A stretch of 64,000 bases of DNA, from NCBI GenBank assembly GCA_905221035.1, contig CAJNBP010000007.1, positions 41,323 through 105,322 of the forward strand, written 5' to 3'. Positions 20,222 to 32,181 of this stretch are shown here, in pieces. The DNA is from a bacterium (lineage in GTDB: Bacteria > Bacillota > Bacilli > Lactobacillales > Streptococcaceae). Position numbers and translations under genes: made by a program. Below the pieces are notes generated by a model. That model worked only from the letters and a program-made list of their open reading frames with translations, was not told the origin of the DNA and did no database searches. Numbering within the stretch: the stretch's first letter is position 1; each line of letters begins with the position of its first letter.

Positions 20222-20317
20222 TTATTTCTTGCGTGAGTTAAGCCATTTCTCAAACAAGGTTGTCAAAATATTGACTACTAAGGGTGCTAGAAAAATTGTG
20301 ATGATAATTTCTAACAT
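20222..20317 (-). CDS. Fst/TxpA-like type I toxin peptide
   Basis: A 31-residue peptide, MLEIIITIFLAPLVVNILTT then LFEKWLNSRKK. It has the Fst plan: a short N-terminus, one membrane helix containing the LAP(L/I)VV-like core, and a charged C-terminal tail. GGGAGGTG lies eight bases before the ATG. The gene is between rpmG and the attL of the integrative element, thus outside the element as I define it. The direct repeat covers the ribosome binding site and first codons, so pairing with the antisense RNA would block translation. Fst-like toxins damage the membrane and condense nucleoids when unrepressed. Confidence 0.75.
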   Translation of the reverse strand: MLEIIITIFLAPLVVNILTTLFEKWLNSRKK

Positions 20318-20355
20318 CGGCAACACCTCCCTTCATTAAATTGAGGGGCCAAAAT

Positions 20356-20384: not shown

Positions 20385-20450
20385 CATCGTGTAATTTTTG
20401 GAATAAATAGACTTAGATACACAAATAAGCTCACTGGCAAATCTCTAAGT

Positions 20451-20547
20451 AAACCCAGAAATCAACATTTTAAGAAAAAGCAAAAAGCCCACTGTTGTAG
20501 GCTTTCTGTAAGATATTTCTTAAAATTAAAGCATTTTGTTGTAGAAT
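20451..20547. repeat. Left attachment repeat (attL)
   Basis: It is a copy of the rpsD 3' end and terminator. The part from 20491 to 20547 is identical to 32125-32181; the part from 20451 differs at three positions. It contains AAAAAGCC, then a hairpin arm and GTAGGCTTTC, so it also carries a terminator hairpin. The rpsD reading frame is not continued past it. Confidence 0.9.
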
Positions 20548-20646
20548 AGATTTAGTATAAATTACACTTTGTTATGCTTTATAAATGTTGATTCTGTAGT
20601 ATTTTTAGAATTTACATATTAAATAAAATAGATTAAACTTTACTCC

Positions 20647-20669
20647 AAGGTGGACAAAAAGGAGTACAA
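20647..20669. other. Candidate left arm-type integrase site
   Basis: AAGGTGGACAAAAAGGAGTA followed by CAAA resembles GGGGGACAAAAAGGGGGACA at 32067-32086 beside attR. Each has two GGxxACAAA units spaced 12-13 bp. Paired repeats just inside both ends of an element are expected for integrase arm sites. Confidence 0.5.
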
Positions 20670-20710
20670 ATTTCATGGTGATGAGTTCAGTAGGCAAGTA
20701 AGAAGTACCG

Positions 20711-20828
20711 TTTAGGTGCTTTTTATTTTACCCTATTCATCTTATAGGTTAAGGGTATATATTTACATTTACTTTAGTTAAAAATTATAACAAAGAATTA
20801 ACTAATGTATATGTATCTGTGGTATAAT
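20711..20828 (+). promoter_or_regulatory. Cassette A regulatory region and promoter
   Basis: TTTAGGTGCTTTTTATTTTA (20711-20730) and CTATTCATCTTATAGGTTAA (20733-20752) are followed by an extended -10, TGGTATAAT (TATAAT 20823-20828). Near-copies of both motifs occur around the XRE gene and upstream of cassette B; the second motif lies exactly 90 bp before the -10 in both places. It is a plausible binding region for the XRE regulator at 23208-23534. Confidence 0.6.
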
Positions 20829-20881
20829 TAGGGTAGTGTTTAACAATATTTTAAACATAAATATAAAACAGGAGGCTTTTT

Positions 20882-20926
20882 ATGAATAAAAAGAAAATAT
20901 TGGGAGTTAGAGTACAAAATAAATAA
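20882..20926 (+). CDS. 14-residue leader peptide
   Basis: A short frame, MNKKKILGVRVQNK, with a strong AGGAGG ribosome binding site nine bases before the ATG. Its TAA overlaps the ATG of the lipoprotein gene (TAATG). The lipoprotein has no ribosome binding site of its own, so its translation probably depends on the leader. It could also be a degraded start of a longer gene. Confidence 0.5.
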   Translation: MNKKKILGVRVQNK

Positions 20927-21204
20927 TGTTAGTAAAACTACAAAGTACTAAGAAGGTATTTCAAGTTCTTTTAGTAATTCTATTTATCTCTTTGCTGTCA
21001 GGATGTAGAAGTTCTCTAAACCGTATTGAAATTGGAGATGAAATATATTTCTGGACTGTAGAACAGAATTTAGATACTGAAGAATTTGAATCTGTTAAGG
21101 TTACAGGGATAGTCTCACAGGTAGTTGAATATGAAGATTATTATATAGTGAGACTACAAGGAGATATAATATCTTACAAGATAGATAAAGATAAATTTCA
21201 CTGA
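20926..21204 (+). CDS. Small lipoprotein of cargo cassette A
   Basis: A 92-residue protein with a signal peptide and lipobox LLSGC (Cys near residue 27). The mature part is only about 65 residues. It looks all-beta, with IEIGDEIYFWTVEQN, VKVTGIVSQVVEYEDYYIVR and IISYKIDKDKF, as in a small SH3- or OB-like barrel. It would be tethered to the outer face of the membrane. It is the first full gene of a three-gene cassette. Family not recognised. Confidence 0.65.
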   Translation: MLVKLQSTKKVFQVLLVILFISLLSGCRSSLNRIEIGDEIYFWTVEQNLDTEEFESVKVTGIVSQVVEYEDYYIVRLQGDIISYKIDKDKFH

Positions 21205-21217
21205 TAAAAGGTAAAGT

Positions 21218-22444
21218 ATGAATAAAGGAAAAATTTTAAAGATAACTGAGAACACAGTGTACATAGGTTATGAAGATGGAAGTTTAAAGGAAATTCCTAT
21301 TGAATCTTGTGACTTTGAACCTGCAATAGGTGATTATGTCGAAGTTTATGGTGATATTGCTATAAAGGTTGAAGGCAGTAAGGAAAGTACTCCAGTTAAA
21401 AAATCAGAGGCTAAAAAAATTTCATTAGTAAGCAAAATAAACATATTTGCCTCTATAGTTTCATTTCCTATCTCATTTAGTTTATTATATGATAGAGGAG
21501 TAATATTAGAAGCTACAATACTATCCCTTTGTGTAGTTTCACTGTTACTGATTGTATTAAATCTGATACTTCTTATTATTTCATCTATTAAGAAGAATGA
21601 GGTTAATAAAAAAAGCTCTATAACGTATTTGATTATAGCTATTATAACTTTTATTTTATCTACTACTCTATATGTAAGTAATAATTTCAGTCCAAATTCA
21701 AAGAAGACTGTATCACAGAACACTTCTAAGTCCTCTAAATCATCATCTAAGAATAGTTCTATAACTCAATCAAATGAAGATGATACTGAGAAAGCAACAG
21801 CTGATTTTAATAATTATTTAGAGAATAATTTAGGTGAAAAGATAGACTATAAAGGGAATATCACATTGATTAATGATGATGAAATTTATCTAGATACAGA
21901 TAAAATCATTATTAATAATAAAAAATATGATTCCAAAGGATTTAAACATAGTCCTAAAATAAAGGCAGTTTATAAAGGGAAAGATATTTTTAGAGGTGGT
22001 CAATCTCTAGGTTTAAATGCAAAAGTTAAAAAGGAGTCAGGAAAACCACAACTTGAAATTTTTGATGTGTTCACAGTAGGGCAAACTTATGAACAATATA
22101 TGCAAAAAGGGATAGAATTAAAAAGTAAATTTGAATTACGAGCAACTGTAAAAGAAGTTAATAAAATAAATAAGAGCGATAGCGATGTATTAACTTTATT
22201 GATTGTTGTAGAACCTCATTCAATTGATTTATTTGATGATGATAATGCACCATTCCAATTTGAAGATGGCAAAAAAATACACTTGGCTTTAACTGAGCAG
22301 ACAGAAGAGGAATTTATTAAACAAAAAAGAGGGTTGAAATCAGGTGATGATATTAGAATTTATGGGATGTTAATGACAGATTCACTAGATTTGTTGTTAG
22401 CAAATCAAGGTGGTAGTTATTTAGACGTGAAAAGAACTAATTAG
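21218..22444 (+). CDS. Cargo membrane protein with N-terminal beta module (MNKGK type, long)
   Basis: A 408-residue protein of unknown function. Residues 1-52 form the module shared by five cargo proteins (MNKGKILKITENTVYIGYED, then the GDYVEVYG turn). Hydrophobic segments follow at about residues 70-130 and 133-152. A Ser/Lys-rich linker (SKSSKSSSKNSS) leads to a domain of about 230 residues, probably outside the cell, whose end (ELRATVKEVN to DDIRIYGMLM) has an OB-fold-like strand pattern. The first 160 bp are very close in DNA sequence to the start of 25373-26158, whereas the rest is unrelated. Confidence 0.65.
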   Translation: MNKGKILKITENTVYIGYEDGSLKEIPIESCDFEPAIGDYVEVYGDIAIKVEGSKESTPVKKSEAKKISLVSKINIFASIVSFPISFSLLYDRGVILEATILSLCVVSLLLIVLNLILLIISSIKKNEVNKKSSITYLIIAIITFILSTTLYVSNNFSPNSKKTVSQNTSKSSKSSSKNSSITQSNEDDTEKATADFNNYLENNLGEKIDYKGNITLINDDEIYLDTDKIIINNKKYDSKGFKHSPKIKAVYKGKDIFRGGQSLGLNAKVKKESGKPQLEIFDVFTVGQTYEQYMQKGIELKSKFELRATVKEVNKINKSDSDVLTLLIVVEPHSIDLFDDDNAPFQFEDGKKIHLALTEQTEEEFIKQKRGLKSGDDIRIYGMLMTDSLDLLLANQGGSYLDVKRTN

Positions 22445-22461
22445 AAATAAGGTATGAGGTA

Positions 22462-22881
22462 ATGAATACATATAAAGTTATTAAAATTGAAGGAACTCTA
22501 ATCTATTTAGGTAAAGATGACGGAACTTTGCTAAAAGTTGAACAGACTTCTTTTAATTTTGTACCACAATTAGGGGATATAGTAGAGGTATATCAATCTG
22601 AAGGAACCTATATCATAACTAAAAAGTCTAGTGAAGTTCCCACAGAACAGAAAGAAGAAAAAGAATTTCTGACAGTTAGAAATATTAAGGTTATGGCTTG
22701 GCTTGGAATAGCGTTAACGTTATTCGGTAATCCTATTTTTGTTTCAATTCCAGCTGTAATGGGACATCTTTTAAAAGAAAAAGGAGAGAAAGATAGTGGT
22801 AATTTTATGCTTGGAGCCTCTCTTTTTGCTGGTATAACTGCATTAGTAATTAGATTCAGTCTAACAGGTCGCTTCAGCTAA
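22462..22881 (+). CDS. Cargo membrane protein with N-terminal beta module (MNTYK type, short)
   Basis: A 139-residue protein starting MNTYKVIKIEGTLIYLGKDD and including LGDIVEVYQSEG in its beta module. A charged linker (EVPTEQKEEKEF) and two hydrophobic helices follow (residues about 75-100 and 112-130); there is no extracytoplasmic domain. The start is 17 bp after its neighbour's stop, and a terminator follows. The closest relative in the window is 24974-25369. Because the two helices are C-terminal, the module is probably cytoplasmic. Confidence 0.65.
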   Translation: MNTYKVIKIEGTLIYLGKDDGTLLKVEQTSFNFVPQLGDIVEVYQSEGTYIITKKSSEVPTEQKEEKEFLTVRNIKVMAWLGIALTLFGNPIFVSIPAVMGHLLKEKGEKDSGNFMLGASLFAGITALVIRFSLTGRFS

Positions 22882-22910
22882 TAGGTAACACGTTTTTTAA
22901 GGTAATAGAT

Positions 22911-22950
22911 AAGCGCTGGATAGTCAGATTCAGTGCTTTCTTTTTTCTTT
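22911..22950 (+). terminator. Terminator of cargo cassette A
   Basis: AAGCGCTG (22911-22918) and CAGTGCTT (22931-22938) pair, with one G-U, followed by a T-rich tract. The 325 bp from here to the XRE gene has no supported gene. It ends with TTTAGATGCTTTTTATTTTA (23186-23205), a near-copy of the motif at 20711. Confidence 0.75.
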
Positions 22951-23207
22951 TTGTTTTTTAATCGACCTCTTCAATAAAGAAAAATAATTCTCATTCCTTG
23001 TCTAAATAACGTAACTTTTAATCCTCACAATATGCAAAAAGTACGGATAATACCTAATTACCTGACCTACAGATTACTATTAAAAATTACTTCACAAGAG
23101 ACTATAACAATCTGAATCATGATTGAAATAGCAATAGATACTAAAGTAACTGTCTACGGTTGGATATATTTCGGATTAATTACGCTTTAGATGCTTTTTA
23201 TTTTACA

Positions 23208-23534
23208 CTAACTATCTTGGCTTAATTCAAGTATTTCCATCACCTTACGAACAATCATCTTATGCTGTGGGTGTTTCTGAATCTTCAATAACAGTTCCAT
23301 CATCTCTGTATCTTGTGGTACAGAATAAGGTAAGAAAAAATCACTCAACGGAACTTCCAAAGCATCAACAATCTTCACAAAAGTTTCCAAAGAGATATTT
23401 CTGTGACTATTCTCTATTTGACTGATATAAGGAACACTTAGATTTGTTCTTTCTGCTAATTCTTGCTGTGTAATCTTCTTTGAAACTCGTAAATCTCGTA
23501 TCTGATTACTTATAGTTTCTAATATATCATCCAT
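23208..23534 (-). CDS. XRE-family regulator between the two cargo cassettes
   Basis: A 108-residue regulator. The HTH covers residues about 10-65 (ITQQELAERTNLSVPYISQI). A helical C-terminal part includes PQHKMIVRKVMEILELSQDS. The gene is divergent from cassette B and lies between the cassettes. It is distinct from the element's second XRE gene near the integrase, so it probably serves the cargo, with the motif CTATCTATCTTATAGATTAA just upstream as candidate operator. Confidence 0.85.
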   Translation of the reverse strand: MDDILETISNQIRDLRVSKKITQQELAERTNLSVPYISQIENSHRNISLETFVKIVDALEVPLSDFFLPYSVPQDTEMMELLLKIQKHPQHKMIVRKVMEILELSQDS

Positions 23535-23559
23535 TCCTTCACCCTCTATGTTAAATCTA

Positions 23560-23655
23560 CTATCTATCTTATAGATTAAACAATCAGGTTTACATTCTCT
23601 ATAGTTTAATATTAGTTAAAAATATATTCTATTGTTAAAGTTTGTGTGATATAAT
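23560..23655 (+). promoter_or_regulatory. Cassette B regulatory region and promoter
   Basis: CTATCTATCTTATAGATTAA (23560-23579) contains the palindrome ATCTAT-CTT-ATAGAT. A TTTACATT block (23589-23596) follows, then an extended -10 TGATATAAT (TATAAT 23650-23655). The first motif matches 17 of 20 bases at 20733-20752. Both it and TTTACATT keep the same spacing from the start of the module in cassette A. Confidence 0.6.
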
Positions 23656-23718
23656 TATAACTATTAGGAAATATTTATTTTATTTCATTAAATAAAGTTA
23701 AATATTTGGAGGTTATAT

Positions 23719-24540
23719 ATGCTTAAAAAGCTTAAGGAATTAAGCAAAGAACAAAAGATTATAGGTGGTATTGTACTATTGCTTATCCTCATTTTGTTCT
23801 TCACACTACTAAATAGCGGTAGCACTAAACACTCACAAGCTCAAACCAAGGCTAATGATTCTGTCAAACAGTCTAGTTCTTCTTCCTCTACTTCATCATC
23901 CAGTAGTGAAACTAGCTCTAAAATAGAGAAATGGTCTCCAACTGGACATATAGCTGTAGACGCTTATCTAAATACACCACAAATTAAAATCATACTACGA
24001 GCCAAAGCAGTGAGAGAGATAGCACACAAACTCTCTAACACAGATAAACTTTACGAAGTTGAAGCCGAGGTAATTGGGATTGAAGAAAAAGATGAATACC
24101 GTGAGTACAACATAACAGGCAAGAAGCTTCTTATCCGTACACCTGAATCACTAGTTGTGAAAATAAATGAACTTATGGTTTATACAGGAAACACAGTATC
24201 TATAGAGAAATATGATTCAATAGGTAAAGGCTCGTTAGTAATCAGTGAAGTAAGAAAAACAGAGAAAGCACAAGAAGAAGAAAAAGCAAGTATCGAAGCC
24301 TCTAAATCAAAAGAGGAAGAAAATAAAGCATCTTCACGAGTAAAAGAGCAAGAACAAGCTTCATCTCACACCACAACCACTCCTACACAATCGTCTACAT
24401 CTGCTCCACAATCAAATTTAAGACCGTTCAAAAACTGTAAGGAAGCACGAAAAGCAGGACGTGTAAACATACCTGCTAGTGACCCACAATATGGTCCATG
24501 GCTAGATAGAGATAAAGACGGATACGGATGTGATGAATAG
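23719..24540 (+). CDS. Membrane-anchored Excalibur-domain protein of cassette B
   Basis: A 273-residue protein. The N-terminal membrane anchor (IIGGIVLLLILILFFTLL, residues 16-33) is followed by a Ser-rich linker, a domain of about 120 residues with beta character (LYEVEAEVIGIEEKDEYREY), a charged helical stretch (EKAQEEEKASIEASKSKEEE) and a C-terminal Excalibur domain. The Excalibur part has FKNCKEARKAGRVNI and the calcium-loop-like DRDKDGYGCDE. The soluble part should be outside the cell. GGAGG precedes the ATG. The thioredoxin-like gene overlaps its stop codon. Confidence 0.75.
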   Translation: MLKKLKELSKEQKIIGGIVLLLILILFFTLLNSGSTKHSQAQTKANDSVKQSSSSSSTSSSSSETSSKIEKWSPTGHIAVDAYLNTPQIKIILRAKAVREIAHKLSNTDKLYEVEAEVIGIEEKDEYREYNITGKKLLIRTPESLVVKINELMVYTGNTVSIEKYDSIGKGSLVISEVRKTEKAQEEEKASIEASKSKEEENKASSRVKEQEQASSHTTTTPTQSSTSAPQSNLRPFKNCKEARKAGRVNIPASDPQYGPWLDRDKDGYGCDE

Positions 24541-24970
24541 TAAAAAAGTTCTTATTCTACTGTCACTACTACTTATTATAGTTGTCACATTCACAGCATG
24601 CTTAACCACTCAGCCACAAACAGACTACCAGATAGCTATAAGCAAACTCCAAAAGATAAGTTTAGAGGCTGTAGAACAGAAAATACAACATCAAGAAAGC
24701 TTTTATCTATATACAGGTAGAGAAGGTTGCCCATATTGTCAAAAATTTGCTCCAAAACTAGCAAAAGCAGTCGATAAAACTAAGATAACTGTGTATTACT
24801 TGGATAGTGAGCATATAGACAAGACTAGTTGGAATAACTTCAAGACAACCGTAGGATTCAAAACAATACCCAATCTCACTTACTTCACAAATGGTACAGC
24901 ATATGAAAGATTACAAAATGCAAGTCAAGCTAGTGTTGAAGTGATTAAATCATTTATAAGAAAGGAATAA
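24533..24970 (+). CDS. Thioredoxin-fold lipoprotein
   Basis: A 145-residue protein with a signal peptide ending in TFTAC (predicted lipidated Cys) and a thioredoxin-like domain. The active site is GREGCPYCQKF (CPYC) and the cis-proline region is GFKTIPNLTYF. It resembles the bacteriocin-accessory/TlpA-like thioredoxins of streptococci and is probably an extracytoplasmic thiol oxidoreductase. The neighbouring Excalibur domain has two cysteines and would be a possible substrate. The ATG at 24533 overlaps the end of the Excalibur gene by eight bases. Confidence 0.75.
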   Translation: MNSKKVLILLSLLLIIVVTFTACLTTQPQTDYQIAISKLQKISLEAVEQKIQHQESFYLYTGREGCPYCQKFAPKLAKAVDKTKITVYYLDSEHIDKTSWNNFKTTVGFKTIPNLTYFTNGTAYERLQNASQASVEVIKSFIRKE

Positions 24971-24973
24971 ATA

Positions 24974-25369
24974 ATGAATACATACAAAATACTTAAGGAC
25001 AATATTGAAACAATTTATCTAGGTAAGGCTGATGGTAGCCTTCTAGAGATAGAAAGAAAATACTTTGACTTCCTTCCAGAGGTCGGAGAAGAGGTTGAAG
25101 TTTTTGGCAATGATGGAAACTACATCATTACTAGAAAACTCATAATAAATTCAGATACTCCCGATAACACTAAAACGTTGAAAATATGGGGATGGATTTG
25201 CACAGCAACCTCTCTGCTCTTCTTTCCTTTTATTTTTGGAGTAATAGGTATTGTCTTAGGATATCTCATCAGAAGCAGAGGGGATAAAGAACAAGGAACT
25301 GTTATAATGATTTGTGCAACTGGTGCTATGATTTTTGGAATGTGGTTAGGAGCCATTGTATGGGGGTAA
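24974..25369 (+). CDS. Cargo membrane protein with N-terminal beta module (MNTYK type, short, second copy)
   Basis: A 131-residue paralogue of 22462-22881. The module reads MNTYKILKDNIETIYLGKAD with VGEEVEVFGNDGNYIITRK. Two hydrophobic helices follow (about residues 65-90 and 105-130), with GYLIRSRGDKEQGT between them, matching GHLLKEKGEKDSG in the first copy. It starts four bases after the thioredoxin gene stops. Function unknown. Confidence 0.65.
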   Translation: MNTYKILKDNIETIYLGKADGSLLEIERKYFDFLPEVGEEVEVFGNDGNYIITRKLIINSDTPDNTKTLKIWGWICTATSLLFFPFIFGVIGIVLGYLIRSRGDKEQGTVIMICATGAMIFGMWLGAIVWG

Positions 25370-25372
25370 ATA

Positions 25373-26158
25373 ATGAATAAAGGAAAAATTATTAAAATAA
25401 TTGAAGATACTGCTTACATAGGTTATGAAGATGGCAGTTTGAAGGAAATTGGCATTAAAGATTGTGACTTTGAACCTGCAATAGGTGATTACGTCGAGGT
25501 TTATGGTGATATTGTTATAAAGGTTGAAAGTAGCACAGTTAAAAAGCATAACTCTATAAAAACATCATTCTCAAGTAAGATAAAACCTATTTTAATAGCT
25601 CTTATAGTTATTGTTTTGTCGGTTAGTGCATATTTTATAATGAGTAAAATAACTACATCACAGAATATCTCTAGTTCTTCTAAGTCCTCTGCGTTGTCAT
25701 CTAAGAATAAATCTAACTCCTCTTCATCTCAAGAAAGTAGCTCTAGTTCCACAAAATCTTCGATATCAGGAAATATTCCTAAGAATTTATTGACAATAGA
25801 CTATGAAGAAAGGACAGATAAGCAGAAATATTCCTCGTCATTTGACTATGATAAATGGATTCATGATGAATTTCCTCGCTATCTAAAACTACATGTTAGA
25901 GGAGAAGTTGTACAAATTCTCAAAGACCAAGATGATAAAGGTATTTTGATACAAATAGTTCTAAATGAAATAGGTCGTCCAGGACTTGGTGAGCCTGTTT
26001 CTGTGTTTATTCCGGGTGATTACTTGTCAGATATCATAGTAGAAGGTGATAAATTAGATTTGTATGGGAAAACTTATGGAGTTAAGCAGTATTCGTCAGG
26101 TGATTCTGTAGTAATGCGACCATTTATGATTGCTTATTTCTATGAAAGAGATAAATAG
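25373..26158 (+). CDS. Cargo membrane protein with N-terminal beta module (MNKGK type, second copy)
   Basis: A 261-residue protein. Module residues 1-52 (MNKGKIIKIIEDTAYIGYED) are nearly the same as in 21218-22444. One membrane helix (KPILIALIVIVLSVSAYFIM, about 63-82), a Ser-rich linker, then an external domain of about 120 residues follow. The domain has an OB-like pattern (LKLHVRGEVVQILKDQDDKG, then GDKLDLYGKTYG). The single helix would put the module in the cytoplasm and the domain outside. It starts four bases after its neighbour's stop. Confidence 0.65.
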   Translation: MNKGKIIKIIEDTAYIGYEDGSLKEIGIKDCDFEPAIGDYVEVYGDIVIKVESSTVKKHNSIKTSFSSKIKPILIALIVIVLSVSAYFIMSKITTSQNISSSSKSSALSSKNKSNSSSSQESSSSSTKSSISGNIPKNLLTIDYEERTDKQKYSSSFDYDKWIHDEFPRYLKLHVRGEVVQILKDQDDKGILIQIVLNEIGRPGLGEPVSVFIPGDYLSDIIVEGDKLDLYGKTYGVKQYSSGDSVVMRPFMIAYFYERDK

Positions 26159-26306
26159 GAGAGATTATGAATACAATAAGAAAGTCATAGCTGAAGATGA
26201 CCATATAACATTGCACAGACTAGTAAAAGGGAGACAAAGTTATGAAACAATCTTCAAAGAAACAAAAACACTGCCTCTCATGGTTGCCTATATGTACGAA
26301 AACTAA
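26142..26306 (+). CDS. Possible 54-residue protein or gene remnant
   Basis: A frame beginning MKEINRRDYEYNKKVIAEDD and ending in KTLPLMVAYMYEN. It overlaps the 3' end of the preceding gene by 17 bp and stops six bases before the next gene. It has no ribosome binding site. A second start in the same stretch (26167, with GGAGAG) gives only seven codons. It could be a coupled small gene or the tail of a decayed one. Confidence 0.3.
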   Translation: MKEINRRDYEYNKKVIAEDDHITLHRLVKGRQSYETIFKETKTLPLMVAYMYEN

Positions 26307-26312
26307 TACTAC

Positions 26313-27416
26313 ATGAAAAATAAAAGACATAACCAAATTATTCACGTTTCAGATACACATGTTATCATTCGACTCCACACAAACGAGACTCTAAATGTTC
26401 CTATCAATGAGTTAACTTTTAATCCTAAAGTAAACGATATTGTTGAAGTTTACCAAAATCGGAATCACGTAGTAGTTTGTCCTCTACCACAGAGCAACAA
26501 GCTTTGGATTCTTATAACCTCAATTACACTTCTACTTCTTACCATTATAGGAGCTACTTTTTTATTCTTTAGACATCCAGATAGAAATATAGAAACATTA
26601 GATAGTCAATCTTCACAACAAAGCTCCTCTACTACTTCTAGTTCCTCTACATCATTCAGCTCTTCATCCAGCACATCTACCACAAGCTCTAGCTCAACTG
26701 AAGATAGTATAATAGATACGACAGCCGAAGAGCTTCGAGACATGGAGAATGATGGTAGGTTAAAAACTGGTCAACTATATCGCTTCACAGCAGAACTAAC
26801 ACGACAAAAGTTTTGGGAAGCATATGTAGGACATTTTAAAGCTCTAGAAGCATACCATACTATTTGGGTAAAAGCTAGTAATGCTCCTATAACTGGTGTA
26901 CAAGTACAAATTAAGAAATCTATGATTGAAGGATGGCAAGAAGGAGCAACCGTTACTTTCACAGTCAGAATCATGGAAGACTCTGAAAAATTTCAATTCT
27001 GGGTTGCTACTGATGCCACACTTATCACGACTCCCACAGAAGAACAGCACACAAAAAATACAACACAAGAAATTGATACACAGGCTATTCTACACGGAGA
27101 CTACTCAAGTATAGCTGGCACTTGGAGGAATGAAACAGGATACGAATTAGTATTTAATAAGAATGGTTTAGTAAAAGGAGGACAGATAAGTAAAGCAGGG
27201 ATTTCAAACGAAGGAGTTATAGGATTTGATGTCAGAACAGGACCTACAGGATACGGAATAGGCATTTATCCTCCTGGTATAAGTATCCCCTTTAAACGTT
27301 TTGAAAATAATCGTTTGATATCAGTTGAAGATAAATCTGATAAAACAAAAATTAGAATTATAGCTGGACAAAATGCTCCAGATAAATCCGAACAGGTTTT
27401 TTATAAAACAGACTAA
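26313..27416 (+). CDS. Cargo membrane protein with divergent beta module and DUF6287-like C-terminus
   Basis: A 367-residue protein and the most diverged member of the module family. Residues 1-60 include HVIIRLHTNETLNVPINELT and VNDIVEVYQNRNHVVV. A membrane helix (about 66-90), a long Ser/Thr linker (residues about 97-130) and two external domains follow: one around LKTGQLYRFTAELTRQKFWE that may be OB-like, and a final one starting SIAGTWRNETGYELVFNKNG. The final one resembles the DUF6287 domain of streptococcal lipoproteins. A strong terminator lies 41 bp after the stop. Function unknown. Confidence 0.65.
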   Translation: MKNKRHNQIIHVSDTHVIIRLHTNETLNVPINELTFNPKVNDIVEVYQNRNHVVVCPLPQSNKLWILITSITLLLLTIIGATFLFFRHPDRNIETLDSQSSQQSSSTTSSSSTSFSSSSSTSTTSSSSTEDSIIDTTAEELRDMENDGRLKTGQLYRFTAELTRQKFWEAYVGHFKALEAYHTIWVKASNAPITGVQVQIKKSMIEGWQEGATVTFTVRIMEDSEKFQFWVATDATLITTPTEEQHTKNTTQEIDTQAILHGDYSSIAGTWRNETGYELVFNKNGLVKGGQISKAGISNEGVIGFDVRTGPTGYGIGIYPPGISIPFKRFENNRLISVEDKSDKTKIRIIAGQNAPDKSEQVFYKTD

Positions 27417-27457
27417 ATCACAATTGACTCTACTTATAAGATATACCTTAACATCTG

Positions 27458-27490
27458 AAAATCCCTGCAATTACTCATTGCAGGGATTTT
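27458..27490. terminator. Bidirectional terminator after cassette B
   Basis: AAAATCCCTGCAA and TTGCAGGGATTTT form a perfect 13 bp stem with a seven-base loop. The A and T ends let it act on either strand. The stretch from here to 27800 is AT-rich with no supported gene. Confidence 0.9.
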
Positions 27491-27818
27491 GTATATCCTT
27501 TATATCACATGAACCTCCTTTGGACAATTCCACACTACTAACACATTTTTGATATAGAGAGTTAATCGCTGAACAGCAAAATTCACATACATCCATTACT
27601 ATTCTATTTTTTAATCGCCCCTTAGAAATCCCATTATCACGCGCATTACTAACCACAAACACAAAAAGATAAATTGATACAATTGTACAGAAAAAACTGA
27701 TAGCTGAATCAAGACAACACTATAAAAATGTTAAATTCTATAATCTAAATCCTTATTAAATAGCTAGTTTTATTCTCTATTTTATCTCACAAGCATACGC
27801 CTTTATGCCGTGAAAGCA

Positions 27819-28022
27819 AATTGACAGTAAGTAGGCACAAAGTACGCTAAGAACGTCTCAGACGAAAGGCTTTAGTTTTTCGGATGAACAGTTCATTTGT
27901 ACGAGAGTGCCTTGTTTCTTGCTGTCAATTAGACCATGGAATAAATTAGGCGTGTTTGGTACTTAACAAAGTGTTTCACTCCTTTGCCTTCGCTCGTGGC
28001 GGGCTAGTCGTTCACACTTTGT
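27819..28022. other. Highly structured region: possible ncRNA or origin-associated structure
   Basis: A 13 bp helix (27819-27831 with 27918-27930, one G-T pair) encloses a 6 bp helix AGGCAC/GTGCCT (27833-27838 with 27907-27912) and GTAC/GTAC. Inside are two hairpins: CTAA-CGTC/GACG-TTAG (27847-27875) and ATGAAC/GTTCAT (27884-27896). A separate stem ACAAAGTGT/ACACTTTGT pairs 27966-27974 with 28014-28022. By eye it is less AT-rich than the flanks. It adjoins the candidate origin and is downstream of the helicase gene. It is not a tRNA. It could be an untranslated RNA, a single-strand origin or a transfer origin. Confidence 0.5.
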
Positions 28023-28033
28023 ATATCTCCAGA

Positions 28034-28132
28034 ATGATACACTTGATACACTAATTTCTAACTTCTTAGAATAAATAAAACAAATAAAATTGAAAATAGA
28101 AATGAAATTTACTGTTTCAAGTGTATCAAGAG
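28034..28132. other. Candidate replication origin: iterons flanking an AT-rich segment
   Basis: GATACACTTGATACACT (28036-28052) contains two direct GATACACT units. Its core, CTTGATACACT, recurs inverted at 28118-28129 (CAAGTGTATCAAGAG on the plus strand). About 65 bp of almost pure A/T lies between. Iteron groups on both sides of an AT-rich segment next to the replication initiator/helicase gene is the layout described for SaPI origins. The right iteron overlaps the 3' end of the helicase gene. Confidence 0.55.
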
Positions 28133-29667
28133 CATGACTTCATTACATACCCTTTATATCTCTTTGTAGAATCCAAATTAAAAGACTCAGAATGAATAAA
28201 ATAAACAGAATCACCCTCATCAAAATCTTTACAAGTAGATAATGTTGGCTTAAATACCCAGTCTGATGGAAGTGCATCTTTTAATTCTTTGTGAAAGGCT
28301 TCCTTAGTTTCTCGTTCTAAACCATTTCCTTCACAGAATTGTTCATATGCCCATAGCATAAATGAATTCGGCAAGAAAGTAGATTTCACACGACTAAACA
28401 GATAAGATGAAAACTGTTCAACACTTGTCATAGACTTCCCATGAATTTCCTTGATAGCAGGGTGGTGACTGATATCCTTGAATCCATCACTGATATCATA
28501 TTCTAATGCATTCTTCAATACATATTCTAATACATCCTGACGTTTTAGATAAACCTGCTTTATTTCTCTCTTGTAACCATCTTTGTTAAATTCAGAAACG
28601 AAGGGAAGTATGAAAGTTCTTCTTGCTATAGCTTCTTTGTCTCCTTGAATCTTAATCAATCGATTAGATGATTGAACAATCACAGGAGTAAGTCGAGCAG
28701 AATAGGCCTGTTTGCCTTTCTTTTCGATTGTGACAATATCATGAGTAACTAGAGAAAACATAGTAGAAGGGTCTGTTACCACCTTATCAATAGCATTATC
28801 ATCTCCAATAACTAGATGTTTACCTATTAACTGTGAAGTTGCAAAACGGTTTCTACCATCTAATTCAATTAGTTTCATGGAGGCTGTATTAATCCTACCT
28901 ACTAAGTTAATTAACAACTCTTGGAAACTGCCCTTACCTGTTCCTCCTTTTCCAATCAGCCAAATAATTCTCTCATCAGCATAACCACGTATCACTGCCA
29001 AAATTGTTTGCCATGCTAAGTGAATTAGTTCATCATCATTATTAAACAGTTCAGCTAACCATGAATCAATAGACCAACCACCTAATACTGGAGAATTTGC
29101 TTCTGAATTATAATTTACTTGTACCTTATGTGTAAACACAATTGAAGGACTGTATTTCATTCCATACCGATAATAAGTATCATAAATACAATTCCCTAAA
29201 GCTATGTAACGTAAACCTTGATATATACTTACATTTTTACAGCTACAACTTAGTGCACAAATAATCTCGTATATATCAGCACTCCTAAAAGAAGGTTCTA
29301 ATCTTCTTACTAATTTAGGAACTATATCCCAAGCAGGTTGATAAATCCCCTCTTTTGGATTGTACACAAATAAGCTACCTTCACCAGTATCCTCTATGTC
29401 AGCTATACTAACCACAATGAGATGAGCCATTAAAAATTCTGCCATAATATAAAAAGGAGGTTTTCTCTTTTTCATCTTGTCTTTTTCTGGAACGTCTTTA
29501 TAAGGGTCAGAATCAATTACCTCATTTTTATAGATTCGCCATGCTTCTTTATATTTATCTATTGGAGCAGCGTTAGCAAAATCTTGAATAGCACTCTCAG
29601 GGTAAGTTTCAAATTCATAGTCTGATTCTAATACAGAATCTTTCGCTTTAATCTTAATTATTGACAT
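28126..29667 (-). CDS. D5/P4-type phage or plasmid primase-helicase (SF3 helicase)
   Basis: A 513-residue SF3 helicase of the virulence-associated E/P4 primase C-terminal class. Walker A is IGKGGTGKGS (residues about 237-246) and Walker B-like KHLVIGDDNA follows. A domain of about 230 residues precedes the ATPase, but I see no clear archaeo-eukaryotic primase motifs, so it may only unwind DNA. The ATG at 29667 (MSIIKIKAK) has AGAAGGAA seven bases upstream; longer starts are unsupported. It probably initiates element replication at the adjacent iterons. Confidence 0.85.
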   Translation of the reverse strand: MSIIKIKAKDSVLESDYEFETYPESAIQDFANAAPIDKYKEAWRIYKNEVIDSDPYKDVPEKDKMKKRKPPFYIMAEFLMAHLIVVSIADIEDTGEGSLFVYNPKEGIYQPAWDIVPKLVRRLEPSFRSADIYEIICALSCSCKNVSIYQGLRYIALGNCIYDTYYRYGMKYSPSIVFTHKVQVNYNSEANSPVLGGWSIDSWLAELFNNDDELIHLAWQTILAVIRGYADERIIWLIGKGGTGKGSFQELLINLVGRINTASMKLIELDGRNRFATSQLIGKHLVIGDDNAIDKVVTDPSTMFSLVTHDIVTIEKKGKQAYSARLTPVIVQSSNRLIKIQGDKEAIARRTFILPFVSEFNKDGYKREIKQVYLKRQDVLEYVLKNALEYDISDGFKDISHHPAIKEIHGKSMTSVEQFSSYLFSRVKSTFLPNSFMLWAYEQFCEGNGLERETKEAFHKELKDALPSDWVFKPTLSTCKDFDEGDSVYFIHSESFNLDSTKRYKGYVMKSCS

Positions 29668-29814
29668 ATTCATGTTCCTTCTGTTTATAAATATCACACT
29701 GTATAGTGTATTTGAGCAATTGAATCTGTGATTCAATATGGCGACAACTTCCTATGTATCTCAAGTAAGCACAGGAATTTTCATCTATATTTTTTATTTT
29801 TTCATACAATATAG

Positions 29815-30111
29815 TTACTCCTTTTTAGTAATTGAGAGGAACTTCATAACATCTGATTTCTTATAGAAAACTTTGCGAGTTCCTTCTATCGGTGGACAGT
29901 ATCTGGTTAACCCCAAACGCTCCCATTCATGCAGAGTTACTAAACTAATACCTAGTTCTTTGATTAACTCTTTCTGTTGAATCAAGCCGAACGAGTCACT
30001 GTGAGCTGGAAGCACTGCGTTTGATAGATAATCATCTATTAAAAACTCAATCCTTCCCAACAATGCTAGTTCTGCTTCTTGAGATAATATCCCTTGTGGT
30101 ATACTATACAT
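29815..30111 (-). CDS. Excisionase-like/MerR-type HTH protein
   Basis: A 98-residue protein. The second half is a winged HTH of the excisionase/AlpA/MerR class (LIQQKELIKELGISLVTLHE, then TRYCPPIEGTRKVFYKKSDV and MKFL). It is divergent from the XRE regulator across an operator-like region and upstream of the helicase gene, so it may be the excisionase or an activator of the replication gene. AGGAGGA precedes the ATG. The 147 bp between it and the helicase gene holds no other gene. Confidence 0.75.
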   Translation of the reverse strand: MYSIPQGILSQEAELALLGRIEFLIDDYLSNAVLPAHSDSFGLIQQKELIKELGISLVTLHEWERLGLTRYCPPIEGTRKVFYKKSDVMKFLSITKKE

Positions 30112-30158
30112 ATATCCTCCTTCTTTTCTATTTGTTCACAACTATCATCTCATAACTA

Positions 30159-30206
30159 TTACAGCTTGCCTGTTAACCAAGTTAACTAGGTTAATTAACT
30201 TGGGTT
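30159..30206. promoter_or_regulatory. Operator region between divergent excisionase-like and XRE genes
   Basis: AACCAAGTTAA (30175-30185) and TTAACTTGGGTT (30195-30206) form an inverted repeat with one extra base. A further GTTAACTAGGTTAA lies between. The motif TTACAGCTTGCCT just to the left (30159-30171) recurs at 30865-30877 before the integrase gene. This is the likely binding site of the element's master repressor. Confidence 0.6.
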
Positions 30207-30290
30207 GTGTTTTGAATTTTATCAGTTTTCTGTTTACATGTCAAGAGTTTTATGTTAAAATTTTACTAAAGTTATTAAACGGAGGTTAAA

Positions 30291-30833
30291 ATGATAGGAG
30301 CATATCTTAAAAAATACCGTACAGAAGGTAACGTAACTACTAAAAGACTTGCTGAATATCTGAAAGTATCACAGTCTTATGTCTCACAAATTGAAAATGA
30401 GAAAAAGATTCCCAGCGTAAAGAGGCTCTTTGAAATCACTGAATGTATTGCTGCATGCTCTATAAAAGAAAAATGCGAACAAGATGGATTAAATTCTGAG
30501 GAGTACTATATAGAATATCAAACATTAGCTAGCTCTTATATTGATGAGATAATTAAAAATATTAATCTGGATTCAATCCATAATGATAAAGAAAAACAGA
30601 TGTTAAAAGACTTAATAGAATTCAATGATAAAACATCATCTTTACCATGGGTATCCACAACATACAAAGATATTAGCCAAGATATTATCAATGGGGAAAA
30701 GATTAAAATCAACCTTGATTATATCTTTAGGAAGAATGTAAAAATAACTATTGATGGTCAAGCACTCACAACTGAGGACTTAACCGCTCTACAAATACTA
30801 ATTGAAGGTATTCGTTCTAGACACAAATCATAA
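30291..30833 (+). CDS. XRE-family element regulator (CI/Stl-like)
   Basis: A 180-residue protein. The N-terminal HTH (YRTEGNVTTKRLAEYLKVSQ, then SYVSQIENEKKIPSV) precedes a helical domain of about 110 residues without a recognisable protease or metal site. It is divergent from the excisionase-like gene and just upstream of the integrase, the position of the master repressor in phage satellites. GGAGG lies upstream of the ATG. The inducing signal is unknown. Confidence 0.85.
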   Translation: MIGAYLKKYRTEGNVTTKRLAEYLKVSQSYVSQIENEKKIPSVKRLFEITECIAACSIKEKCEQDGLNSEEYYIEYQTLASSYIDEIIKNINLDSIHNDKEKQMLKDLIEFNDKTSSLPWVSTTYKDISQDIINGEKIKINLDYIFRKNVKITIDGQALTTEDLTALQILIEGIRSRHKS

Positions 30834-30900
30834 TAACTTTTTTCATAACTTTTTTCATAACCTTTTACAGCTTGCCTACTGATGTTAGAAAGGTTAAGAA

Positions 30901-32064
30901 ATGAAAATAGCAGAAATCAAGAAACAAAACGGTGACACTGTATATCGTGCAAAAGTATACTTAGGAGTAGATAAACTCACAGGAAAAAAAATAAAGGCTA
31001 ATCTGACAGCTAGAACTAAAACTGAATTGAAGAAAAAAGCTCAATTAGCTAAAGCCGAATTCCAAAATAATGGCTCTACTAAGAAGGAAACCATTCCACT
31101 AACAAGCTATGAAGAAGTAGCTCAATTATGGTGGGAAAGCTATCAACACACAGTAAAACCAAATACACAAGATTCAGTAAAACGACTACTAGCTAACCAT
31201 GTGATTCCTCTATTTGGTTCTTATAGGTTAGATAAGTTAACCACTCCAACTATCCAACGCATTGTTAATCAACTAGCTCTACGTGCTAACAAAAGAGAAG
31301 AGGGAGCATTTCTACACTATGATAAAATTCACGCGCTAAATAAACGTATCCTACAATATGCTGTGACAATGCAGATTATTGATATAAATCCAGCTCGTGA
31401 AGTTATTCTTCCTCGTAAAATAAAAAAGGGTAGAAACAAAGTCAAGCACTTTAATAACTTAGAGTTAAAGCAATTTCTCAGTTATTTGGAAGAGGCTAAC
31501 TTAGCAATATATAGAAATATCTATGAAATTACTTTGTATAAGTTTCTTCTTGCTACTGGTTGCCGTATTAATGAAGCCTTAGCTCTACACTGGTCAGATA
31601 TTGACCTAAATAATGCAACTGTGAATATTACAAAAACACTAAACCATTTAGGTGAGATTAACAGCCCAAAGTCGGAGGCAAGTTATCGTACAATTGATAT
31701 TGACCCACAAACTATAGAGGTCTTAAAAATGTATCAAAAAAGACAAAGGCAAGAAGCTTGGAAACTTGGTCGGACTGAAACTGTTGTCTTCTCAGATTTT
31801 ATTCATAAATACCCAAACAATAAAACACTAGCAACTCGTTTAAACACACGTTTCAAACATGCTGGTGTACCTAATATTGGATTCCATGGTTTTAGACACA
31901 CACACGCTAGTCTCTTGCTAAACTCTGGAATACCATATAAAGAATTACAACACCGTCTAGGTCATTCTACACTAGCTATGACTATGGACACTTACAGTCA
32001 TCTCTCCAAAGAAAAAGCAAAAACAGCCGTCTCATTTTATGAGAAAGCTGTAAGTTCTTTGTGA
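30901..32064 (+). CDS. int: Tyrosine-family site-specific integrase
   Basis: A 387-residue tyrosine recombinase. An N-terminal arm-binding domain (GDTVYRAKVYLGVDKLTGKK) and a SAM-like core-binding domain precede the catalytic domain. The catalytic set is Arg222 (TGCRINEAL), His329 and Arg332 (HGFRHTHAS), a downstream His in LGHST, and Tyr365 (DTYSHL). It integrates the element into the rpsD 3' end; the stop codon is 20 bp from the attR repeat. It is co-oriented with the XRE gene, with tandem CATAACTTTTTT repeats between them. Confidence 0.95.
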   Translation: MKIAEIKKQNGDTVYRAKVYLGVDKLTGKKIKANLTARTKTELKKKAQLAKAEFQNNGSTKKETIPLTSYEEVAQLWWESYQHTVKPNTQDSVKRLLANHVIPLFGSYRLDKLTTPTIQRIVNQLALRANKREEGAFLHYDKIHALNKRILQYAVTMQIIDINPAREVILPRKIKKGRNKVKHFNNLELKQFLSYLEEANLAIYRNIYEITLYKFLLATGCRINEALALHWSDIDLNNATVNITKTLNHLGEINSPKSEASYRTIDIDPQTIEVLKMYQKRQRQEAWKLGRTETVVFSDFIHKYPNNKTLATRLNTRFKHAGVPNIGFHGFRHTHASLLLNSGIPYKELQHRLGHSTLAMTMDTYSHLSKEKAKTAVSFYEKAVSSL

Positions 32065-32084
32065 AGGGGGACAAAAAGGGGGAC

Positions 32085-32181
32085 AAACCCAGAAATCAAC
32101 TTTTTAAGACAAAGCAAAAAGCCTACTGTTGTAGGCTTTCTGTAAGATATTTCTTAAAATTAAAGCATTTTGTTGTAGAAT
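32085..32181. repeat. Right attachment repeat (attR) with rpsD terminator
   Basis: This is the second copy of the 97 bp repeat. It covers the last 22 bp of rpsD including its stop, plus the downstream terminator hairpin: GCCTAC/GTAGGC (32121-32136), reading into AAAAA on the left, which is TTTTT on the minus strand. Integration therefore leaves both the S4 protein and its terminator intact. Confidence 0.9.

Follow-up and report, generated by a model that had tools for sequence, protein, structure and literature searches.

A conserved envelope-protein cargo in one family of small satellite-type integrative elements of oral streptococci

The DNA analyzed here (the window) is a stretch of 64,000 nucleotides (nt) from contig CAJNBP010000007.1 of a Streptococcaceae assembly (GCA_905221035.1), probably of a mitis-group Streptococcus to judge by its gene content and the records that match it, in which an 11.6 kb element inserted at rpsD (20451-32181) carries a group of genes for predicted envelope proteins. 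We found that this group makes up the conserved cargo of a single family of small integrative "satellite"-type elements in oral streptococci. Its constant core consists of an XRE regulator, a membrane-anchored Excalibur protein (EXC), a membrane-anchored CxxC thioredoxin (TRX) and a protein bearing an OB-fold, while an N-terminal module shared by five membrane proteins (M1 to M5, starting at 21218, 22462, 24974, 25373 and 26313) is an elaboration of it. We are highly confident of this anatomy and of the conserved unit, and as to its function we tentatively favor surface exclusion, a choice that may easily prove wrong. A preliminary description made from the window alone had proposed a mobile envelope cargo at 20882..27416, in which a common inner module is joined to varying outer domains. 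This proposal is supported, and the genes of that interval are real, but the element continues to 32181.

The element is bordered by 97-nt direct repeats that are 97% identical to each other. Between these attachment (att) repeats lie an integrase, a repressor and a primase, a satellite-type trait also seen in the Javan records of streptococcal satellites (PMC6813308). Two of these are close public relatives: satellite phage Javan323 (MK448429) covers 89% of the query 20400-27450 at 92.7% identity and Javan305 (MK448418) covers 53% of it at 92.0%, their cargo genes being labelled "hypothetical" in GenBank, and six further Javan records match the query in the att part alone. The words rpsD and "cargo" are absent from the main text of PMC6813308. 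Open reading frames (ORFs) were called with a simple script. Among those of at least 50 amino acids (aa) in 27417-32084, no gene for helper-phage induction, packaging or capsid remodelling was recognized, with PHROGs covering only the primase and repressor of this backbone. The TGATACA-type repeats adjoining the end of the primase gene represent a possible replication origin. A scan of viral contigs yielded eight pattern matches, none of which was confirmed, and a plasmid search, a tRNA scan and an Rfam scan returned nothing informative.

The gene set is conserved beyond the window. Specifically, the order XRE, EXC, TRX, slot, M5-type gene is kept in eight element copies (the window, Javan323, Javan305 and loci L098-L102), in all of which EXC, TRX and the M5-type gene are full-length; the integrase is 94-99% identical across these copies and the primase differs in Javan323, L100 and L102. 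Between TRX and the final gene, the slot is occupied by M3 and M4 types, or a 267-aa protein with a 245-aa M4-like protein, or a 317-aa M1-like protein, and the slot before the XRE gene holds the lipoprotein/M1/M2 group, the 267-aa protein, or neither. Two details of gene content had escaped the preliminary description: the ORF at 26130-26306 is a relic, apparently the tail of the 317-aa slot type left after replacement, and the first gene, at 20882, is a 14-codon remnant of a lipoprotein gene. A search with the excisionase-like protein of the element gave matches in 109 of 244 genomes (E <= 1e-12), reaching 67% identity or more at six places only, and at all six EXC, TRX and OB-fold genes stand beside the excisionase-like gene. 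None of the EXC, TRX, OB and module genes was found in ten comparison elements taken from the next 15 rows of this search; one of these (L220) is also at rpsD, three (L222, L225 and L226) are presumably parts of conjugative elements, and L221 and L225 are short contig pieces. One of the six, the element of genome G056 (L211), located before a serC-like gene, has an integrase of 47%, a primase of 39%, an excisionase-like protein of 66% and an element XRE of 31% identity, and its cargo is 40% (cassette XRE), 43% (EXC), 43% (TRX) and 28% (OB part) identical. It keeps the XRE, 267-aa-type, EXC, TRX and OB proteins and has no detectable module. Since all six related elements carry EXC, TRX and OB genes and L211 does so without the module, we place the XRE, EXC, TRX and OB-bearing proteins in the constant core and no longer regard the module as the defining part, as it had been taken to be. 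The 267-aa-type gene, present in seven of nine elements (L002, L098-L102 and L211), is missing from the window and Javan323 and was therefore rejected as a core member.

Within the window the cargo forms two related cassettes, in agreement with the preliminary description. The upstream regions of 20882 and 23719 align with a score of 76, whereas 1000 shuffles gave at most 64, and the stretch 23178-23218, which comprises the end of the XRE gene and DNA beyond it, has a twin at 20703-20743 (80% identity). All five module genes proved to be ORFs at the starts first noted. Their approximately 55 N-terminal residues are 36% (M2), 41% (M3), 78% (M4) and 25% (M5) identical to those of M1, and leave-one-out profiles searched against 350 stop-to-stop ORFs of the window recovered every omitted protein (E 7.4e-25, 1.7e-20, 6.6e-18 and 5.3e-24, and 1.4e-5 for M5, whose module is the most divergent of the five), with no further ORF at E <= 0.1. 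The common module thus stands, as do the membrane helices in all five proteins and the Ser-rich linkers in three: hydropathy indicated one transmembrane (TM) segment in M4 and M5 and two in M1, M2 and M3, with a third in M1 possible by eye, and the translations show the linkers in M1, M4 and M5. From these sequences an N-inside topology is predicted for the module proteins. The outer domain of M4 has OB topology in a predicted structure model. Its identification as a single-stranded DNA-binding protein (SSB) was rejected, as many OB-folds tied in the fold search, the matches of which lay mainly in this outer domain, and the likeness to PriB/SSB is one of fold only. The prediction for M5 had a mean predicted local distance difference test score of 52.7 and was not used for fold search.

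The module also occurs outside this system, and the idea that it is unique to the cargo was rejected. Of 247 Streptococcus genomes, 48 carry it (E <= 0.01), as do 30 of 295 Lactobacillales genomes (E <= 1e-3); our genome samples, including the former, contain the centre genome G001, which was chosen as a cassette carrier. By eye, 20 of the 24 Lactobacillales module loci that were read encode TM2-type proteins (Pfam TM2 was over its cut-off in two of four module proteins tested), the remaining carriers being a 200-250-aa membrane protein and single cases. At most of the loci L080-L091, which we take to be of Enterococcus type, a module-bearing TM2-type protein is encoded just upstream of a presumably clpP-like gene. 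At L078 / L144 (G376) the outer OB-fold is found on a lipoprotein whose gene adjoins a TM2-module gene, so that the two parts are on separate neighboring genes, and at L034 / L104:7808-8725 (G103) two tandem modules precede the TM segment of a protein with an M5-like end. A PDB sequence match to designed "Cake" repeat proteins arose through a short repeated motif and was rejected as the identity of the module.

Profile-profile comparison by hhalign related the module to RsgI_N (PF12791) at 95.5%, a value reached by none of 200 column shuffles (none was above 5.1%) nor by the reversed control (2.6%). Single modules scored 14.6-18.1 bits against RsgI_N, below the Pfam cut-off of 25 wherever a bit score was shown, and seven of 20 modules matched it weakly at E <= 1 (best 1.8e-4). 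The RsgI_N domain was present in 54 of 101 Bacilli genomes and over its cut-off in 4 of 148 Lactobacillales genomes. SigI (TIGR02895) was found in none of 59 Streptococcus genomes, a count that excludes the window's own genome, and the B. subtilis control was positive. The profile relation and the failure to find SigI suggest that the module is an RsgI_N-like domain used without its known partner, and the same count led us to reject the module proteins as true RsgI anti-sigma factors. Because of this relation, the statement that the module matches no characterized family holds only in part. The relation also raises the reading of RsgI-like transmembrane signalling, in which sensing of an outer ligand would lead to proteolysis or a conformational change and the module would control a partner in the cytosol, for example the XRE protein of the cassette. 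Besides the kinship to RsgI_N, which binds SigI, it would fit the several RsgI proteins per cell that have been described as alike in their inner domain and different in their outer sensors (PMC12203970), and the XRE gene is divergent beside module genes even in the distant locus L103. We nevertheless consider it improbable: SigI was not found, the L211 cassette has an XRE gene and no detectable module, most distant module loci were read without an adjacent XRE gene (L079 is an exception), and M2 and M3 have no outer domain with which to sense. A new SigI-free variant, in which the RsgI-like module holds a cytosolic regulator (e.g., the cassette XRE) beneath swapped outer sensors and is spread by the element with a dedicated TRX-Excalibur pair, seems to us more doubtful still.

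The outer domains appear to have been exchanged between copies. The first 169 nt of M1 and M4 are 85% identical, and greedy clustering of homologues (117 classified of 120 listed) gave three N-terminal and six C-terminal types that occur in 13 of the 18 possible combinations. The homologue listings comprise the best 120 of 558 and the best 120 of 430 matches. Mean pair identity among the matches listed was 0.81 for the module and 0.68 for the outer part. The ratio of nonsynonymous to synonymous polymorphism (pN/pS), computed from 11 M5, 12 EXC, 5 M4 and 5 M4-like sequences, was 0.20-0.39 in the module, 0.00 in Excalibur and 0.14 in the middle parts of both EXC and M5. The OB domain of M4 gave 0.69 and that of the 245-aa type 0.06; the value of 0.70 at the M5 C-terminus coincides with a high pS (0.47), and three TM/linker values above 1 (1.12-1.64) stand on a pS of 0.03-0.08. 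Clear positive selection on the cargo was accordingly rejected, as there was no sign of it in well-populated domains. Low pN/pS together with the N- and C-terminal mosaics points to allele replacement by recombination more than to positive selection.

The Excalibur protein, the thioredoxin and the XRE regulator noted as neighbors of the module genes are all over their Pfam cut-offs. The label of the thioredoxin as a lipoprotein is uncertain, since its lipobox is weak and the Cys is replaced by Tyr in L003 and L005, and a membrane anchor is the safer description. In the window the EXC and TRX genes overlap by 11 nt. EXC has two Cys in all (240 and 271), both within the Excalibur domain, and its sequence ends in DRDKDGYGCDE, which contains the DxDxDGxxC motif. 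Across 244 genomes we read 52 TRX places (from 53 rows, the two pieces of the split G001 gene being taken as one) and found a same-strand Excalibur gene overlapping upstream at 26 of them, namely at 10 of 10 mitis-type cassette places and 16 of 42 distant places. All 26 overlapping EXC proteins have exactly two Cys in their last 43 residues. For CbpL, the pair of Excalibur Cys is reported to be joined in a disulfide adjacent to the calcium site, and the domain to be unfolded when calcium is absent (PMC5137146). By analogy we infer that TRX forms or repairs the EXC disulfide.

EXC-TRX pairs were also found a few kb from a DUF6287 protein (L183, L186, L189, L193 and L212), with a gene that we take to be pepF-like in between in L186. 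Pairs directly downstream of such a presumably pepF-like gene (L170, L175 and L186), and carriers that we take to be mitis-group species, many of them naturally transformable, would agree with a unit that aids the element's own DNA transfer or uptake, by natural transformation or transfer. This is a very unlikely explanation, as no nuclease, relaxase, pilin or pore domain is over cut-off in the cassette, a PHROG "nuclease" match of EXC (E 5e-13) spans only the coil and the Excalibur end, and the other EXC-TRX pairs are located elsewhere.

Returning to surface exclusion, we envisage an XRE-controlled unit acting in the cell envelope, with the XRE regulator controlling both operons. By closing the Excalibur disulfide, TRX would allow this domain to fold around calcium, Ser-rich linkers would carry the outer domains through the wall, and the RsgI_N-like inner module would anchor or couple them on the cytosolic side. 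Outer domains would be exchanged by recombination between copies with a common conserved 5' module, and the resident element would alter the envelope and so hinder the entry of rival phages or elements. We favor this function because the unit is tied to a single family of mobile elements, has its predicted site of action outside the membrane, and contains an Excalibur domain, which in CbpL accompanies an Ltp domain, named for a phage lipoprotein that prevents DNA injection (PMC5137146). EXC also matches phrog_8545 ("superinfection exclusion Sie-like") weakly (E 0.0019), at residues 12-122, mostly TM segment and Ser-rich linker, and we do not count this as support. Several observations weigh against surface exclusion. 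PADLOC gave no specific match for nine cargo proteins (generic helix-turn-helix models for XRE, two weak matches for EXC at E 0.01 and 0.04, and none for the seven others), one of eight flanking genes had a partial PADLOC match (cll, E 1.2e-9), and no superinfection or surface exclusion domain was over cut-off in the cargo. The lack of positive selection in well-populated domains means that there is no clear arms race. Members of the OB-fold and TRX families are also frequent away from mobile elements, and TRX has no Excalibur neighbor at 26 of the 42 distant places (at 12 of these 26, rpsD is no more than about 2 kb away), so that TRX might serve further clients.

Copies of the cassette are also found outside this element, at what we take to be clpL-luxS sites (G224, G246 and G002) and a purD gene (SK642, between purD and purH; M334, at a contig end), and at rpsD beside another integrase (G095). 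Such places beside clpL-luxS and purD without an integrase suggest that the cargo might instead serve the fitness of the host, helping colonization, survival of envelope stress or competition (adhesion, bacteriocin tolerance) in ways unrelated to phages. Consistent with this, TRX resembles the bacteriocin-associated PedC/BrcD family (TIGR01295) below its cut-off (50.4 bits, cut-off 120), Excalibur and DUF6287 are present on other streptococcal surface proteins, and weak PASTA-like stretches, both under the cut-off (E 7e-4 and 0.0067), occur in two of the outer proteins of L211. However, only one of the five clpL/pur copies has escaped damage or shortening, whereas EXC, TRX and the M5-type gene are full-length in the element copies: in G224 the slot and the last gene are missing, in G246 EXC and M5 are fused, the M1-type and M5-type genes are split in G002, and TRX is split in SK642. 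Furthermore, no bacteriocin, transporter, wall-anchor or adhesin match is over cut-off in the cassette, and the EbpS and SAG1386/EF1546 scores are low and fall in Ser-rich parts. We regard host fitness as a possible function, only slightly less probable than exclusion; that neither it nor exclusion, signalling or DNA transfer is correct we judge very improbable. At L096:6898-7488 a deletion has fused the start of EXC to a later part of an M5-type gene, perhaps via Ser-rich repeats.

Table 1. Features of the element and its cargo (window positions)
Feature	Position	Strand	Evidence
attL-like 97-nt direct repeat, copy of rpsD 3' end	20451..20547	.	97% identical to 32085-32181
Relic of sequence at/after end of XRE gene, 5' of cassette 1	20703..20743	.	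80% identical to 23178-23218
14-codon remnant of lipoprotein gene, internal deletion	20882..20926	+	Compared with L001:4555-5040 (161 codons), L095:7414-7860 (148 codons)
92-aa lipoprotein	20926..21204	+	ORF, lipobox by eye; copies 84-89% identical in L001, L004/L106, L095, L096, L097
M1: module, multiple TM, Ser linker, outer domain	21218..22444	+	ORF, alignment, profile, hydropathy
M2: module, 2 TM	22462..22881	+	ORF, alignment, profile, hydropathy
XRE regulator, divergent from Excalibur gene	23208..23534	-	HTH_3 62.8 bits, cut-off 23
EXC, membrane-anchored Excalibur protein	23719..24540	+	PF05901 42.6 bits, cut-off 22
TRX, membrane-anchored CPYC thioredoxin	24530..24970	+	PF00085 27.8 bits, cut-off 23.5; PDB 1zma E 1e-11
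M3: module, 2 TM	24974..25369	+	ORF, alignment, profile, hydropathy
M4: module (1-55), TM (73-97), Ser linker, outer OB-fold (~159-261)	25373..26158	+	
Relic, C-terminal end of alternative slot protein	26130..26306	+	Matches end of 317-aa protein in L023
M5: module, TM, Ser linker, middle domain, DUF6287	26313..27416	+	PF19804 51.7 bits, cut-off 26.3
TGATACA-type repeats, direct and inverted, adjoining primase end	28035..28128	.	Inverted repeat and motif positions
P4/D5-type primase-helicase	28126..29736	-	DUF5906 and Pox_D5 over cut-off; phrog_864 E 1.6e-69
Excisionase-like (MerR-type helix-turn-helix) protein	29815..30111	-	PF13411 19.1 bits, below cut-off 21.6
Element XRE repressor-like protein	30291..30833	+	HTH_3 41.9 bits
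Tyrosine integrase	30901..32064	+	PF00589 94 bits
attR-like repeat overlapping rpsD 3' end	32085..32181	.	Repeat match to 20451-20547

Two observations concern neighboring DNA. Just beyond the element border (~20226-20318, minus strand) the window has an ORF for a 31-aa hydrophobic peptide, which we take to resemble Fst-type type I toxins. Three genes lie beside the cassette of S. mitis SK642 (L003:12610-15180): one has a HEPN/RES domain, one is unknown, and the third matches PADLOC "cll" in part.

No description of this gene set was found in the open-licence PubMed Central literature. The sequences are public and the domains known, while, to our knowledge, their combination and its link with the element are novel. 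A strongly conserved and uncharacterized cargo hereby gains a testable outline, that of an envelope unit which stays with a single element family even where identity falls to about 40%, together with the biochemical prediction that TRX would oxidize EXC. Among known systems, the Javan323 and Javan305 satellites share the backbone and cargo of the window, but Javan305 is without cassette 1 and has other slot content, and Javan323 has another primase. Like EXC, CbpL of S. pneumoniae (PDB 5j8t) has an Excalibur domain with two Cys and the calcium motif, but CbpL is a choline-binding protein with an Ltp domain, whereas EXC is TM-anchored with another middle domain. The PedC/BrcD bacteriocin disulfide isomerases (TIGR01295; PDB 1zma) are CxxC thioredoxins related to TRX, the gene partner of which is Excalibur, with no bacteriocin gene over cut-off nearby. 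RsgI anti-sigma-I factors (PDB 6ivs/6ivu) likewise combine a small N-terminal beta-rich cytosolic domain, a TM helix and divergent outer domains, and the family is reported to have a periplasmic autocleavage domain (PMC12203970); here, in contrast, no SigI was found, the outer domains are OB and DUF6287, and two of the five members have only two TM segments and no outer domain. Finally, the TM2-type proteins of Lactobacillales bear the same N-terminal module without a Ser linker or outer domain, which suggests a wide use of RsgI_N-like inner domains among the membrane proteins of this order, including those of streptococci in which SigI was not found.

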